NCBI RefSeq assembly: GCF_014197795.1
Contig: NZ_JACIGI010000019.1
Coordinates: forward strand, 23,679 to 87,678
DNA: 64,000 nucleotides
DNA from: Roseospira goensis
GTDB lineage: Bacteria > Pseudomonadota > Alphaproteobacteria > Rhodospirillales > Rhodospirillaceae
Direction of reading: 5' to 3'
Within the stretch, counting starts at the first letter, position 1. Each line of letters begins with the position of its first letter. The translations under genes and the position numbers were made by a program. Shown here piece by piece: positions 5,593 to 60,176 of this stretch. Below the pieces are notes generated by a model. The model ran no database searches, was not told where the DNA came from, and was given only the letters and a program-made list of their open reading frames with translations.

Positions 5593-7062
5593 GTGATTCC
5601 CGTCTATGCCTACGCCCTGGAACCGGTGGCCGTGATGGGCCTGGGCCGCTCCGGCCTCGCGGCCGCGCGGGCCCTGTTGGCCGCCGGGGCGCGCGTGATG
5701 GCCTGGGACGACGATCCGGCCCGGCGCGCGGCGGCGGCGGCCGAGGACATGCCGGTGGTCGATCTCACCACGGCCGACCTGACCGGGGTGCGCGCCGTGG
5801 TCTGGAGCCCCGGTATTGCGCACACCCACCCGGCGCCGCATCCGGTCGCCGAGCGCGCCCGCGCCGCCGGCGCCGCCCTGGTCTCGGACGTCGAACTGCT
5901 GCTGGGCGCGCAGCCGGCCGCCTTCGTGGTCGGGGTCACCGGCACCAACGGCAAGTCCACCACCACCAGCCTGATCGGGCATATCCTGCACCACGCCGGT
6001 CAGGCCGCCCAGGTGGGCGGCAACCTGGGCACACCGGCGCTGGCGCTGGACCCAGTGGGGCCGTTCGGCACCTATGTGCTGGAGCTGTCCAGCTACCAGC
6101 TCGACCTGACGCCGTCGTTGGTGTGCGACGTGGCGGTGCTGCTCAACGTCTCGCCCGACCACCTGGAGCGGCACGGCGGCATGGAGGGCTACATCGCCGC
6201 CAAGCGCCGCATCCTCCAGGGGGTGCTGCCGCCGCGCAAGGTCTGTATCGGGCTCGACGACACCATCTGCCGCAACATCCACGCCGAGCTGACGCGCACC
6301 GACAGCCGCGACCTGATCCCATTCTCGGCCGCCCGGGCGGTGCCGCGTGGGGTCAGCACCAAGGACGGCGTGCTGGTCGACGACATCGACGGCAAGGGCG
6401 CGCGGGTGGCGGACCTGACCGGCCTGCGCGCGCTGCCGGGCGAGCACAACTGGCAGAACATCGCCGCCGCCTATGCCGCCTGCCGGGCGCGCGGGGTGCC
6501 GCCGGCAACCATCGCGGCGGCGCTGAAGACCTTCCCCGGGCTGCCGCACCGGCACGAGATCGTCGCCACCGTGGACGGCGTGCTGTTCGTCAACGACAGC
6601 AAGGCGACCAACGCCGAGGCCGCCGAGAAGGCGATCCTGTGCCACGACGACATCTACTGGATCGCCGGCGGTCAGGCCAAGGAGGGCGGCATCGACGCTT
6701 TGGAGCCGCACCTGGACCGCATCGTCCACGCCTACCTGATCGGCGCGGCGGCGGAGGCGTTCGCCGCCGTGCTGGACCGCAACGAGGTGCCGTACTCGCT
6801 GTGCGGCACCCTGGAGGCGGCCGTGGACCTGGCGTTCCAGCATGCCTGCGAGGACGACGAGGAGAACCCGGTCGTGCTGCTGTCGCCGGCCTGCGCCTCG
6901 TTCGACCAGTTCGCCAACTTCGAGGCCCGGGGCGACGCCTTCAAGGCGCTGGTGGCCGACCTCGCCGCCGAGATCGAGGACACCGTGTCGGATGATGCCG
7001 ACGGCGGGGCGGACGCGCCGACTGTCGAACCCATGACCGACGAGGACGAGACCGACCGATGA
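5593..7062 (+). CDS. murD: UDP-MurNAc-L-alanine:D-glutamate ligase MurD
   Basis: Cytoplasmic Mur ligase adding D-glutamate to UDP-MurNAc-L-Ala. The 489-residue protein opens with a Rossmann-like MGLGRSGLAAARAL, then the ATP loop GVTGTNGKSTTTSL, the SPDHLERH motif and the C-terminal NDSKATNAEAAEKA motif characteristic of MurD. It starts at GTG 5593, with GGAGGGTG-like purines just upstream. It is slightly longer than the family because of an acidic C-terminal tail rich in Asp and Glu (DDADGGADAP...). The stop overlaps ftsW (ATGA). Confidence 0.97.
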   Translation: MIPVYAYALEPVAVMGLGRSGLAAARALLAAGARVMAWDDDPARRAAAAAEDMPVVDLTTADLTGVRAVVWSPGIAHTHPAPHPVAERARAAGAALVSDVELLLGAQPAAFVVGVTGTNGKSTTTSLIGHILHHAGQAAQVGGNLGTPALALDPVGPFGTYVLELSSYQLDLTPSLVCDVAVLLNVSPDHLERHGGMEGYIAAKRRILQGVLPPRKVCIGLDDTICRNIHAELTRTDSRDLIPFSAARAVPRGVSTKDGVLVDDIDGKGARVADLTGLRALPGEHNWQNIAAAYAACRARGVPPATIAAALKTFPGLPHRHEIVATVDGVLFVNDSKATNAEAAEKAILCHDDIYWIAGGQAKEGGIDALEPHLDRIVHAYLIGAAAEAFAAVLDRNEVPYSLCGTLEAAVDLAFQHACEDDEENPVVLLSPACASFDQFANFEARGDAFKALVADLAAEIEDTVSDDADGGADAPTVEPMTDEDETDR

Positions 7063-26080: not shown

Positions 26081-26446
26081 ATGACAGGGCAAGCGCGCGG
26101 GGCCGACGGCTCCGCTCCCCCCTCCGCCGGACGCCGCCGCCGGACCGCCGTGCGCCGCGCGGGCGCGGCGGTGCTGGCGCTGGCCACTCTGGTCGCGCTC
26201 GGCACGCCCCCGGCGGCGGCGCAGAGCCTCGACCAGCTCCGCGCCAGCGGCGCCGTGTGTGAGCGGCCGGACGGCCTGTTGCGGGCGCTCAGCGGCGACG
26301 CCGCCGTGCGCCAGCAGGTGGACACCATCAACCGCGAGCGCCTGGCGGCCTACGAACGTCTGGCGCGCGAGACCAACACCACCATCGAGCAGGTCCGCGT
26401 GGTTTCGGGCGAGAAGCTCCAGGCCAAGTACGGGGGCTGTCCGTAG
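26081..26446 (+). CDS. ydbL: YdbL-family periplasmic protein (DUF1318)
   Basis: Periplasmic accessory protein of the YdbH-YnbE system. The 121 residues have a long Arg-rich n-region, a signal sequence ending around PPAAAQS, then the DUF1318 region: GAVCERPDGLLRAL, VDTINRERLAAYERLA, NTTIEQVRVVSGEKLQAKY. ATG 26081 gives the only reasonable signal peptide, though the n-region is longer than usual. It follows ynbE in the same orientation, the conserved order. Its 3' flank is a run of large hairpins. Confidence 0.85.
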   Translation: MTGQARGADGSAPPSAGRRRRTAVRRAGAAVLALATLVALGTPPAAAQSLDQLRASGAVCERPDGLLRALSGDAAVRQQVDTINRERLAAYERLARETNTTIEQVRVVSGEKLQAKYGGCP

Positions 26447-26470
26447 CCGTCCGTCGCGGCGCGGAATCCT

Positions 26471-26519
26471 GCACCACCTCGTGATCAAAGACAGGACCAA
26501 CACGATCAAGAGGTGGTGC
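26471..26519. repeat. Hairpin following ydbL
   Basis: GCACCACCTC (26471-26480) pairs exactly with GAGGTGGTGC (26510-26519); inside, TGATC pairs with GATCA around a 17-nt loop. It is the first of four consecutive hairpins between the convergent ydbL and LpoA-like genes. It lacks the 12-bp inner stem of the next three and may be a reduced relative or an independent terminator-like structure. Confidence 0.5.
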
Positions 26520-26527
26520 GATCCGCC

Positions 26528-26593
26528 CGAGAGCAGATCGCACCAAAATGGAATCGCGCCGTGATCCCATTTTGGTGCGTGAATCTGCTCTCG
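26528..26593 (+). repeat. Structured palindrome, copy A
   Basis: An 11-bp outer stem (CGAGAGCAGAT with ATCTGCTCTCG) is followed by an asymmetric internal loop of C opposite GTGA. Then comes a perfect 12-bp inner stem (GCACCAAAATGG with CCATTTTGGTGC) and a 15-nt loop AATCGCGCCGTGATC. It defines the family architecture shared with the copies at 26601, 26676 (inverted) and 28581. Confidence 0.75.
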
Positions 26594-26600
26594 AATCAAT

Positions 26601-26662
26601 ACAGCCGATTGCGACAAACCGGAACCGCGGCGCGACGTCGGTTTGTCGCGATAATCGGCTGT
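26601..26662 (+). repeat. Structured palindrome, copy B
   Basis: Same architecture as copy A with a different stem sequence: 9-bp outer stem ACAGCCGAT/ATCGGCTGT, internal loop T opposite GATA, 12-bp inner stem starting GCGACAAACC (one wobble pair), 15-nt loop AACCGCGGCGCGACG. Its left arm is the exact reverse complement of the arm of the half copy at 60114-60135. Confidence 0.75.
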
Positions 26663-26675
26663 AAAATCAATAATG

Positions 26676-26739
26676 TAGAGCCGATTCACGTTTGAAATCG
26701 GAACGCAGTTCCGGTTCCGATTTCAAACGATCGGCTCTA
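26676..26739 (-). repeat. Structured palindrome, copy C (inverted), abutting the LpoA-like gene stop
   Basis: Read on the minus strand: 10-bp outer stem TAGAGCCGAT/ATCGGCTCTA, internal loop C opposite GTGA, 12-bp inner stem GTTTGAAATCGG, 15-nt loop AACCGGAACTGCGTT. Its outer arm includes the stop codon of the minus-strand lipoprotein gene (26737-26739), so the hairpin forms at the very end of that mRNA. Confidence 0.75.
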
Positions 26740-28542
26740 GGACGCCGGCGGGCAGACCCGCGTCGTCCGGCACGACCCGCCGGAACACTCCCGCACCCAG
26801 CGACAGCCGTCGTCGGCCGGCGCCGCCGGAGCGCCCGGCGTCGCGGCCGGGATGGCCTCCGGCGTCCCGTCCGGCCCGGGCGCCGGGCCGTCCACCGGCG
26901 CCGCCACCGGCCCGACCGGGGCCGCGGGGGAGGCCGGCGAGTCCGGGGGGGACCGCCCCGCAGGCGCGTCCACACCGTATTCACGCGCGAGCCACGGGAA
27001 GCGGGCGAAGTCGTCGGGGCCGACCAGCCGGGTCGCGGCCTGGCCGGGGGCGAAGGCTTCGGGGGCCGGCCGGATCAGGCGCGGGCCTTGCGCCGTGACC
27101 TCCAGGACATGCATGGCGCGCTCGTTCAGGCCCGACGGCAGCAGCCGGAACAGGCCCGCGTAGCCCTGGAAGCCGGCCGGGTCGGTCAGGAACGCGGTGA
27201 CATCGGCCCTATCGTCGGCTCCCTCTTCGGCCCCCTCTTCGGCCCCCTCTTCGGACCGGCCCTCGGCCGCCCAGGCGGCGGCCAGCGCCACGGCGTCCAT
27301 CGCCAGCCGCTCCAGCTTGCCGGGGCCGGCCGCAGTCCGCACGGCCGGCTCGGGTCCGGGGGCGGGGCGGTCCGGGGCCTCCGGCTTGCGGGCGGCGCGC
27401 GGCGGCGGTCCGCTCGGCGCGGCCCCGGCCGCGTCGGCCGCCCCCCCGTTCGTCCCCTCGTTCGTCCCCTCGTTCGGTGCTGCGGCATCCGTCGCGGCGG
27501 TCTCCCTCTCTGGCTCCGTCTCACGCGGTTCCGGCATGCCGGGCCGCTGGTCCGGCGGCAGGCTGGTGCTGACGTACCAGGCCCCGCGCAGCGACCCCTC
27601 CGCGAAGGTGCCCGGCCATTCCCACAGGTCGGTGCCCAGCAGGCGCACCCGGGGCAGCGTGGCGTCGTAGTACTCGAACAGCGCCGACAGGCCGACCAGC
27701 GTCATGCCGGTGGTGGGGATCACCGCACCGGTGAGGTCGAGGCGGGCCAACGCGCGCACGATCTCGACCTGACTGTTGTAGGGGGTGTCCGGCGCGAACA
27801 GGCGGCTGGCCAGGACCTGGACCGTGCCGGTCTGGGCGGCCGAGGCGGCGGCACTGGCGACCAGGCGGGCGTAGGCGGTATCGGGCCCGACCACCACCAC
27901 CCGGCCGTGCCCCTCGGCGGCGGCGTGGGCGAGCAGGGCCGTCGTTTGCGGCCCGGGCCGGTGACCCAGCACGAACAACCCCTCGCCGGCCACCGCGCGG
28001 TTGTTGGAGAACGTCAGCACCGGCACACCGGCCGCCGCGGCCACCGGTTTGACCGCCTGGGCCCCGACCGAGAACAGCGGCCCAAGCAGCAGGGCCGCCC
28101 CGTTCGCGACCGCGGTGTCGGCGGCGGCCCGCGCCCCCTCCGGTGTGCCCTGGGTGTCGTGGACGCTCAGGCGCAGGACCTCGGCCCGCCCTGGGGCACG
28201 CGCCGGCCCCAGCGCCTGGCGCGCGGCCGCCTCCAGGGCGCGCCCGGTGTCGGCCTCGGGCCCCGACAGGGGCACCAGCAGGGCGACGGACAGCGGTCCG
28301 CGCGGCGTTTCTGGGACCGGGGCGGCCGCCTCGGGGGCGGGGGGCGGTGGCGGGTCCGGGATCGGGGCGGTGGCCGTGCCGGGACCGCCCGGCGCGGCCG
28401 CGCACCCCGCCAGCAGGGCCGTGGCCAAGCCCAGGGCCGGCAGCCGGAGGCGGTCCGCCCACCGGCGCCGGGTCGGCCCGCGCGGCCGTGCCGGCGGCGG
28501 GCGGGACCCGGTCAGGTCCGGTGTCTGCGCGTGCTGGAGCAT
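26737..28542 (-). CDS. LpoA-like penicillin-binding-protein activator (periplasmic-binding-fold lipoprotein)
   Basis: Outer-membrane lipoprotein with a type-1 periplasmic-binding fold, the class annotated as penicillin-binding protein activators (LpoA-like). From ATG 28542 (GGGAG 8-10 nt upstream) it has 601 residues: a 30-residue Arg-rich n-region, lipobox LLAGC (Cys about 47), a Pro-rich linker, then the domain from VALLVPLSGPEADTGRALEA through NGAALLLGPLFSVGAQAV and PVLTFSNNRAVAG to LLGTDLWEW. Two low-complexity inserts sit inside it, NEGTNEGTNGG and EEGAEEGAEEGA, each encoded by tandem DNA repeats. The C-terminus is Pro/Ala-rich and ends with four cysteines. The usual partner rsmI is not adjacent. 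Specific role is inferred from fold only. Confidence 0.75.
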   Translation of the reverse strand: MLQHAQTPDLTGSRPPPARPRGPTRRRWADRLRLPALGLATALLAGCAAAPGGPGTATAPIPDPPPPPAPEAAAPVPETPRGPLSVALLVPLSGPEADTGRALEAAARQALGPARAPGRAEVLRLSVHDTQGTPEGARAAADTAVANGAALLLGPLFSVGAQAVKPVAAAAGVPVLTFSNNRAVAGEGLFVLGHRPGPQTTALLAHAAAEGHGRVVVVGPDTAYARLVASAAASAAQTGTVQVLASRLFAPDTPYNSQVEIVRALARLDLTGAVIPTTGMTLVGLSALFEYYDATLPRVRLLGTDLWEWPGTFAEGSLRGAWYVSTSLPPDQRPGMPEPRETEPERETAATDAAAPNEGTNEGTNGGAADAAGAAPSGPPPRAARKPEAPDRPAPGPEPAVRTAAGPGKLERLAMDAVALAAAWAAEGRSEEGAEEGAEEGADDRADVTAFLTDPAGFQGYAGLFRLLPSGLNERAMHVLEVTAQGPRLIRPAPEAFAPGQAATRLVGPDDFARFPWLAREYGVDAPAGRSPPDSPASPAAPVGPVAAPVDGPAPGPDGTPEAIPAATPGAPAAPADDGCRWVRECSGGSCRTTRVCPPAS

Positions 28543-28580
28543 GCCGCCGTCTCCCTTCTCTTGGGTCGGGTCGTGGCCTA

Positions 28581-28640
28581 GCGCCGATCGCTCGAAATCG
28601 GAACCACCGGGGTGGGCCAATTTCGAGCGTGACTCGGCGC
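28581..28640 (+). repeat. Structured palindrome, copy D
   Basis: Located just upstream of the LpoA-like gene. Outer stem GCGCCGA(T) with (C)TCGGCGC, internal loop C opposite GTGA, 12-bp inner stem GCTCGAAATCGG with one mismatch, 15-nt loop AACCACCGGGGTGGG. Architecture is identical to copies A-C although the stem sequence differs. Confidence 0.72.
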
Positions 28641-28654
28641 GATCAGTTGGTTTC

Positions 28655-28713
28655 AGAGCGGAACGCCCGAATTCGAAATCACCATGCGAGTCCGTATTCG
28701 GGCGTTCCGCTCT
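28655..28713 (+). repeat. Structured palindrome, copy E (no internal loop)
   Basis: AGAGCGGAAC (28655-28664) pairs with GTTCCGCTCT (28704-28713) and runs straight into a 12-bp inner stem beginning GCCCGAAT (two mismatches near the loop). The 15-nt loop AATCACCATGCGAGT resembles that of the half copy at 60099 (both end GCGAGT). The C/GTGA internal loop is absent. Confidence 0.65.
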
Positions 28714-28883
28714 AACCGGAGCCGTTGACGCCGATCGCCGAGGCAGGATACCGACGGCGGCGCGGCCCGGCCAGCGCCCGCCCCGGGGCGGGGCGCTGTC
28801 CCGGCATCTTTCTCGGCATCGTGTGATCGTCGCCACAGGCCGGCGCCCAGGGGTGGGGATCGGGGCCGGACTCCGGGCGGGGG

Positions 28884-60078: not shown

Positions 60079-60098
60079 AGTAGATAGTGCCTAAATAG

Positions 60099-60135
60099 AA
60101 TCGCGCCGCGAGTCCGGTTTGTCGCAATCGGCTGT
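60099..60135 (-). repeat. Half copy (F) of the structured palindrome family
   Basis: Loop-like AATCGCGCCGCGAGT (60099-60113) is followed by a single arm: inner 12 nt CCGGTTTGTCGC and outer 10 nt AATCGGCTGT. The 22-nt arm is the exact reverse complement of the left arm of copy B at 26601-26622. The matching second arm is missing, so this copy cannot fold alone. It lies between the convergent GcvR-like and DUF2937 genes. Confidence 0.7.
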
Positions 60136-60176
60136 AGGGGGTGCGGACCGGCGGACCAGCGGACCCGGCTCCCCGG

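Follow-up and report, generated by a model that had tools for sequence, protein, structure and literature searches.

The palindromes in this 64,000-nucleotide stretch (the window, meaning the whole stretch of DNA that was analysed) are hairpins of one plan, and their unit is an inverted pair of two different hairpins, not a single palindrome. The unit is probably a non-autonomous, MITE-like mobile DNA element with the layout of the CIR repeats of Caulobacter and Brucella: two bulged hairpins, inverted with respect to one another and joined by a short IHF-like linker. The shape of the hairpins is conserved while the letters of their stems change, and GANTC, the CcrM-type methylation site, is preferentially retained in them.

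Hairpins of the window

Hairpin A (26528-26593, forward strand) belongs to subfamily S1 and carries GANTC both in its loop (26551) and at its foot (26581). Hairpin B (26599-26664, forward) belongs to S2, has ATA as its bulge, and is a copy without GANTC. Hairpin C (26675-26740, reverse) is of S5 and hairpin D (28578-28643, forward) of S4, each with GANTC at the foot (26683 and 28631, respectively). These four were assigned from their folds and the subfamily profiles. Hairpin E (28653-28715, reverse) pairs with D as an S4+S6 couple; it represents a sixth, related type, S6, that lacks the foot bulge and has GANTC in its loop region (28688). The subfamily profiles also recover a remnant, a partial S2 hairpin at 60098-60136 on the reverse strand.

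Hairpins A, B, and C lie between convergent genes, one encoding a DUF1318 protein (its stop codon ends at 26446) and the other a periplasmic-binding protein of family PF13458 (26737-28542, reverse strand). The TAG of hairpin C (26737-26739, reverse) is the stop codon of the PF13458 gene, and D and E (together 28578-28715) lie upstream of it. Hairpins B and C make up an S2+S5 pair of about 140 bp that recurs at many sites, and the linker between them (26665-26677, forward, its last three bases within hairpin C) holds an IHF-like site with one mismatch to WATCAANNNNTTR. The A-B-C arrangement resembles an S1+S5 pair whose linker has received an S2 hairpin together with a further linker, which hints at mosaic growth. 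The sequence AATCAATA flanks B on both sides. A further hairpin (26471-26519, z -5.0) lies between the DUF1318 stop codon and A; similar sequence is found ahead of the S1 hairpin of locus L101, and the two may represent a further hairpin type.

Folding as DNA gave z-scores of -9.0 for A, -7.3 for B, -9.4 for C, and -5.0 for D, and none of 200 shuffles folded as well, so the original prediction that the four share one plan is borne out. The fitted plan consists of an outer stem (10-11 bp), an inner stem (13 bp), and a loop (15 nt), with a bulge of three bases, TGA or in B ATA, between the stems on the 3' side. The first pair of the inner stem is C-G or T-G; the predicted single pyrimidine opposite GTGA, followed by 12 bp, describes the same bases. 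The lengths of 12 bp and 15 nt, which had been predicted to be fixed, hold for the A-D plan and are not universal: the family-wide plan is an outer stem, a 3-nt bulge, an inner stem of 12-13 bp, and a loop of about 15 nt, the loop is one base longer in most copies of S4, and hairpins of 63-68 nt and of 53 nt occur in other genomes. Hairpin D is itself imperfect, with mismatches.

A scan that used no model found 90 double-stem palindromes in 475,495 bases of the genome (the window and 100 loci chosen for holding matches, not a random sample), and in 75 of them the bulge was exactly 3 nt long. When 40 of the 101 sources (230,310 bases) were Markov-shuffled, no double-stem palindromes were found in them. 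These counts come from strict settings, as looser ones were swamped by chance palindromes of GC-rich sequence.

Among twenty-seven sequences from this and other genomes, aligned without a model, 90.2% of stem cells are paired, whereas shuffling lowers this to 72.2%; the covariation score likewise drops from 0.459 to 0.153, and none of 500 shuffles reached the observed value. When the partners were slid by one to three columns, pairing fell to at most 39.3% in this alignment and at most 44.3% in an earlier one. Among 124 distinct rows from other genomes, double changes occur at all 13 inner pairs and 95.8% of cells pair, although this is weaker evidence since the alignment was fitted to the model and some hairpins were read on both strands. 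The foot is kept in sequence as well, reading TAGAGC.GATC at one side and GTGANTC.GCTCTA at the other; across genera GTGAATC persists while the inner stem changes. The view that structure and not sequence is conserved thus stands with regard to covariation, but it does not extend to the foot or to the copies within one genome, which fall into sequence-conserved subfamilies.

At the gathering thresholds of Rfam the window matched nothing but a tRNA, and a tRNA was also the sole match in 10 loci from other genomes. A search of 26400-28800 at E-values up to 10 gave only chance-level miRNA models.

Inverted pairs in this and other genomes

A covariance model (R1) built from A-D and homologous hairpins at seven other sites of the genome has at least 153 matches there, a floor value, with 150 of 2,689 candidates scored. 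The 146 copies that were aligned fall into subfamilies of 46, 41, 28, 18, and 11 members and two singletons. A, B, C, and D look unrelated because they are drawn from four different subfamilies. One hundred stretches were taken, most of them around R1 matches and extended by about 2 kb to either side as far as the contigs reached. In these and the window, the subfamily profiles identify 223 hairpins or pieces of hairpins in 116 units: 68 of S2 (the type of B), 53 of S5 (C), 31 of S3, 30 of S4 (D), 23 of S1 (A), and 18 of S6 (E). Several contigs stop a few hundred bases or less from a hairpin (L101, L126, and L129), and three contig ends that adjoin hairpins have the same flanking sequence. The repeats evidently cause breaks in the assembly, and double counting of some sites is possible.

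The original prediction described a family of palindromes of about 60 nt. The hairpins are real, but they are halves of a larger unit. Neighbouring pairs are inverted with their bulges facing inward in 82 of 96 cases, and when both members are full length the inverted fraction is 76 of 82 in this genome and 30 of 30 in other genomes. The commonest combinations are S2+S5 (26), S2+S3 (22), S1+S5 (17), and S4+S6 (16). Three pairs of like with like are split or adjoining pieces, and 31 hairpins were left unpaired by the pairing rule. The partners are never 85% identical or more (0 of 82 pairs here and 0 of 30 elsewhere, with maxima of 0.75 and 0.74, respectively). An inverted pair of identical hairpins is a very long palindrome, which bacteria tolerate badly, and this may be why the partners are unlike.

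The spacer between partners is about 10 nt, and exactly 9 nt in 27 of 30 pairs from other genomes. With at most one mismatch allowed from the IHF consensus as commonly given, sites were found in 16 of 46 distinct linkers of this genome and 11 of 28 from other genomes, against about 2% of shuffles; the second figure is the more independent, because the linkers of one genome are related copies. The linker is therefore regarded as IHF-like and as a putative binding site.

R1 detected the element in 8 of 41 relatives, so the predicted further copies exist within and beyond the genome. Within the order, a second model (R2), built from 27 hairpins of this and other genomes, matched at least 44 of 318 genomes, spread over 24 of 115 genera (16 candidates scored per genome); among 385 genomes sampled from the class it matched at least 24, from 20 of 277 genera (13 candidates per genome). 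Both counts include this genome. As a negative control, 80 named loci, proteobacterial and other (789,171 bases), were searched with R2 and gave no match. It matched 5 of 24 named genomes, those of Rhodospira trueperi, Azospirillum soli, Azospirillum oryzae COC8, a Minwuiaceae MAG, and a Parvibaculum MAG. In R. trueperi the matches fall at the coordinates seen in G002, so the genus of the window is most likely that of R. trueperi. The distribution is patchy, and G005, which is of the same genus, is without the element. BLAST searches with the window element against plasmids and phages, and with four pairs from other genomes against plasmids, gave no match.

Element ends, stop codons, and GANTC sites

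The ends of the element read YTA...TAR, in a window in which T and A each account for about 13% of the bases. A pattern requiring TA matched 74 left and 80 right ends of the 116 units. Of the 74 left ends parsed, 62 have C or T before the TA, and of the 80 right ends, 64 have G or A after it. The left ends are YTAG and not GTAG, a G standing before TAG at only 5 of 74.

At 48 places the TAG of an element is also the stop codon of the neighbouring gene. Genes called with a simple codon model built for this analysis, rather than by a standard annotator, stop with TAG in 48 of 52 cases at element ends and in 80 of 349 cases elsewhere; C or T precedes this TAG in 39 of the 48 and in 25 of the 80. 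The genes include infC, purB, ilvC, pyk, and ccrM, whose products are IF-3, adenylosuccinate lyase, ketol-acid reductoisomerase, pyruvate kinase, and a CcrM-like methylase. In a scan of 20 element-ended proteins, several of which have no family model, the models reach or nearly reach the ends of these products; the CcrM-like methylase has a tail of 41 residues beyond its last domain. YTAR sites outside the elements comprise 27 stops, 117 intergenic sites, and 52 coding sites, a base rate from which some coincidence with stop codons is expected, but less than was observed.

A test independent of gene calling gave the same picture. At 36 of 55 ends in this genome, and at 30 of the 53 from other genomes, the long open frame upstream is that of the TAG; for other YTAG sites the figure is 56 of 161 (counts by frame, that of TAG first, are 36/6/13, 30/8/15, and 56/57/48). 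S2 ends, which start with TAC and cannot stop translation, show no bias (8/7/6). Twenty-nine rows from this genome and 12 from others that lack TAG or TAC were left out, as were edges and repeated places.

Of 103 units with classified context, 48 lie between convergent genes, 49 between genes in tandem, and 6 between divergent genes; 13 further units at contig ends, in an ORF, or without a flank fall outside this count. Counted by gap, an element is present in 47 of 75 gaps between convergent genes, in 48 of 225 between tandem genes, and in 6 of 50 between divergent genes, in stretches that were chosen for holding elements. Away from contig ends, 1 of 105 units lies inside a called ORF, although stop codons are overlapped.

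Orthologues were available for 12 of the 52 element-ended genes, from regions of G002, G004, and G005 and from earlier loci; three L043 rows (end not aligned, repeat-like protein) and one duplicate ilvC place were left out. Six orthologues end at exactly the same residue. The others extend further, four of them by one to three residues, one by 6, and one by 13. Five stop with TAG and seven with TGA. The TGA stops and the two longest extensions indicate that some stops changed at or after insertion. In G005, which is element-free, ilvC ends AAC TAG GCGGG, whereas here AAC TAG continues into the element, the end of which reads CTCTAG GACGG. This empty site fits duplication of TA, but a terminal TA belonging to the element would look alike. 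The Rhodospira trueperi orthologue of the PF13458 gene, which is without an element, also ends in CTAG. No precise alignment to an empty site was obtained at L049/L308, nor for D and E against L130.

GANTC is present in 173 of 192 full-length hairpins (19 are without it), in 113 of 116 units, and in 94 of 98 distinct hairpins from other genomes. By subfamily the counts are 23 of 23 in S1, 47 of 56 in S2, 22 of 23 in S3, 27 of 30 in S4, 36 of 42 in S5, and 18 of 18 in S6. The site is in the loop in S2 and S6, in the foot bulge in S3, S4, and S5, and in both in S1. Its density is 9.8 times background. Since TCNGA is also enriched (6.7 times), the pattern of variation at N weighs more as evidence. 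Across the seven consensus positions, minor alleles have a share of 0.43, 0.39, 0.36, 0.35, 0.50, 0.12, and 0.33 at N, as opposed to 0.00-0.14 at G, A, T, and C; N exceeds its four neighbours at all seven, though only slightly in S5 (0.12 against 0.08). The base that follows GTGA alternates between A and C, while GA and TC are constant. On the hairpin strand N is almost only A or C (93 GAATC, 93 GACTC, 7 GATTC, and 3 GAGTC in L030-L129, over six subfamilies). GAGTC is rare although transitions would yield it, and N is therefore not simply free.

A CcrM-like gene with a RAMA domain is present in this genome. Because 35 of 41 relatives also have one, whether they carry elements or not, its presence does not discriminate. 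The gene of this genome (L087:5032-6231) itself stops on an element, which starts at 6229 and belongs to the very family that carries CcrM sites.

Mobility and comparison with known repeats

If the pair is a mobile element, it would insert at a YTAR site and have TA on either side afterwards. At a TAR stop codon, the next base of the element, G, would rebuild TAG. Insertion there would cost the gene little because the stop is restored, and this low cost would be why copies persist at the ends of housekeeping genes. The hairpins would be recognised by their shape and conserved foot by an enzyme supplied in trans. They may also be structure-recognised recombination sites, as originally suggested. 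With less confidence, IHF may bend the linker and so bring the two hairpins together, and methylation of GANTC may couple movement to the passage of the replication fork, by analogy with IS10, for which Dam and IHF act in this manner. A broader proposal is more doubtful, though conceivable: that this is a structure-recognised mobile element widespread in Alphaproteobacteria, with its hairpins joined by IHF, its movement gated by CcrM methylation, YTAR stops targeted and rebuilt, and an enzyme from a class that has yet to be connected with repeats of this sort. The few families tried, RAYT and DDE_3, yielded no mobilising enzyme.

Two other transposition routes were weighed. In an element of the REPIN/BIME type, a RAYT (HUH tyrosine transposase) would excise the paired REP-like hairpins as single strands. 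Inverted palindrome pairs with a spacer that replicate as one unit, location at gene ends, and subfamilies within a genome all agree with this, as do two RAYT matches in the genome, the second of them in an open frame of 764 aa (G000:C30). It is nevertheless unlikely, and RAYT was rejected as the resident mobiliser on distribution and context. Five of the eight element-bearing relatives (G001, G003, G004, G006, and G038) have no RAYT match, and G005 has a RAYT but no element, five of these six genomes being drafts that are at least 96% complete. Element matches are absent from six RAYT loci, and the RAYT gene (NF047646) at L009:1354-1923 is flanked by a different REP-like repeat, which begins GTAGGTTGGGGTGAGC. 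The YTAG ends, in place of GTAG, and the hairpin size of about 66 nt also argue against it. A possible but not favoured origin is as a MITE mobilised by a DDE transposase that targets TA (IS630/Tc1-mariner type), in which case the hairpin feet would serve as the terminal inverted repeats. Mobilisation of this type has been suggested for RUP and Correia elements, and the TA at both ends, the preference for YTAR, and the empty ilvC site would fit it. However, DDE_3 (PF13358), the only DDE family searched, has no match in the genome, and TA bounds each hairpin and not just the unit.

Readings that do not depend on mobility fare worse. RNA elements selected at gene ends, whether as bidirectional terminators or as 3'-end stabilisers of mRNA, could have spread by any route. 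The strong excess between convergent genes, the scarcity between divergent ones, and the stable folding of both strands would suit them, but purifying selection on insertions also yields a bias toward gene ends. The sequences read have no T-run after them, there is no Rfam match at gathering, and GANTC is conserved with a free-standing N, including changes of N that break the facing pair, which points to DNA. An RNA role is accordingly improbable. It is more improbable still that the hairpins are domesticated CcrM sites, dispersed as GANTC beacons for timing of the host cell cycle: retention of GANTC and the element at the stop codon of ccrM itself favour this, but the element is absent from G005, a member of the same genus, and from most relatives with a CcrM-like gene.

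The preferred reading, a mobile element of CIR layout, would extend what was a set of a few Caulobacter and Brucella repeats to an apparent superfamily spanning the class, whose members can be recognised by shape. It offers testable answers to why the repeats carry a methylation site, why they consist of two unlike hairpins, and how essential genes tolerate them. If methylation gating is true, the element would be an alphaproteobacterial counterpart to the control of IS10 by Dam.

Several known repeats share features with the element. As predicted, it is unlike ordinary REP elements, from the classical forms of which it differs in size and loop. According to the available text of PMC3116915, REPIN/BIME repeats have in common with it inverted palindrome pairs acting as one unit, location at gene ends, and subfamilies; the differences are hairpins of about 66 nt here instead of 20-40 nt, the lack of a GTAG tag and of RAYT association, and unlike partners. 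The prediction that an integron core is lacking was also correct, attC being rejected since GTTRRRY is absent from both strands of A-E. Correia/NEMIS and RUP elements, as far as PMC2229807 was accessible, are similar in their length of about 100-200 bp, TA ends, and long stem-loops, with an IHF site reported in NEMIS. Those elements fold end to end, whereas each half folds on itself here, and no resident IS630-type transposase (PF13358) was found in this genome. Rhizobial RIME and the A/B/C palindromic mosaics are further alphaproteobacterial palindromic mosaics, and their likeness to the element is one of description only.

The closest resemblance is to CIR, the CcrM-associated intergenic repeats, which reportedly go back to Chen and Shapiro in 2003. 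In the parts of PMC2229807 and PMC10969869 that were available, they are intergenic repeats of about 110 bp whose mobility is unexplained, with two independent stem-loop arms, a linker, GANTC, and TA termini. The family was not recognised originally, but the CIR repeats are a described kind with the same layout in the accessible text of PMC2229807. In the CIR-type literature searched, which excluded most subscription papers and the founding CIR paper, no placement at stop codons, heterotypic pairing, or IHF-like linker was found, and stems that covary across genera, as seen here, were not found in the CIR descriptions available. In the same partial descriptions, one CIR arm has GANTC at a terminal loop or partly inside it; here GANTC is in the loop (S1, S2, and S6) or the foot bulge (S1, S3, S4, and S5). 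The element is called CIR-like and not CIR because its units are about 140 bp and not about 110 bp, and it is likened to CIR by layout, from those descriptions, and not by sequence. On that basis the two have in common a pair of long, independently folding stem-loop arms, a linker, a conserved GANTC, TA termini, an intergenic location, and alphaproteobacterial hosts.
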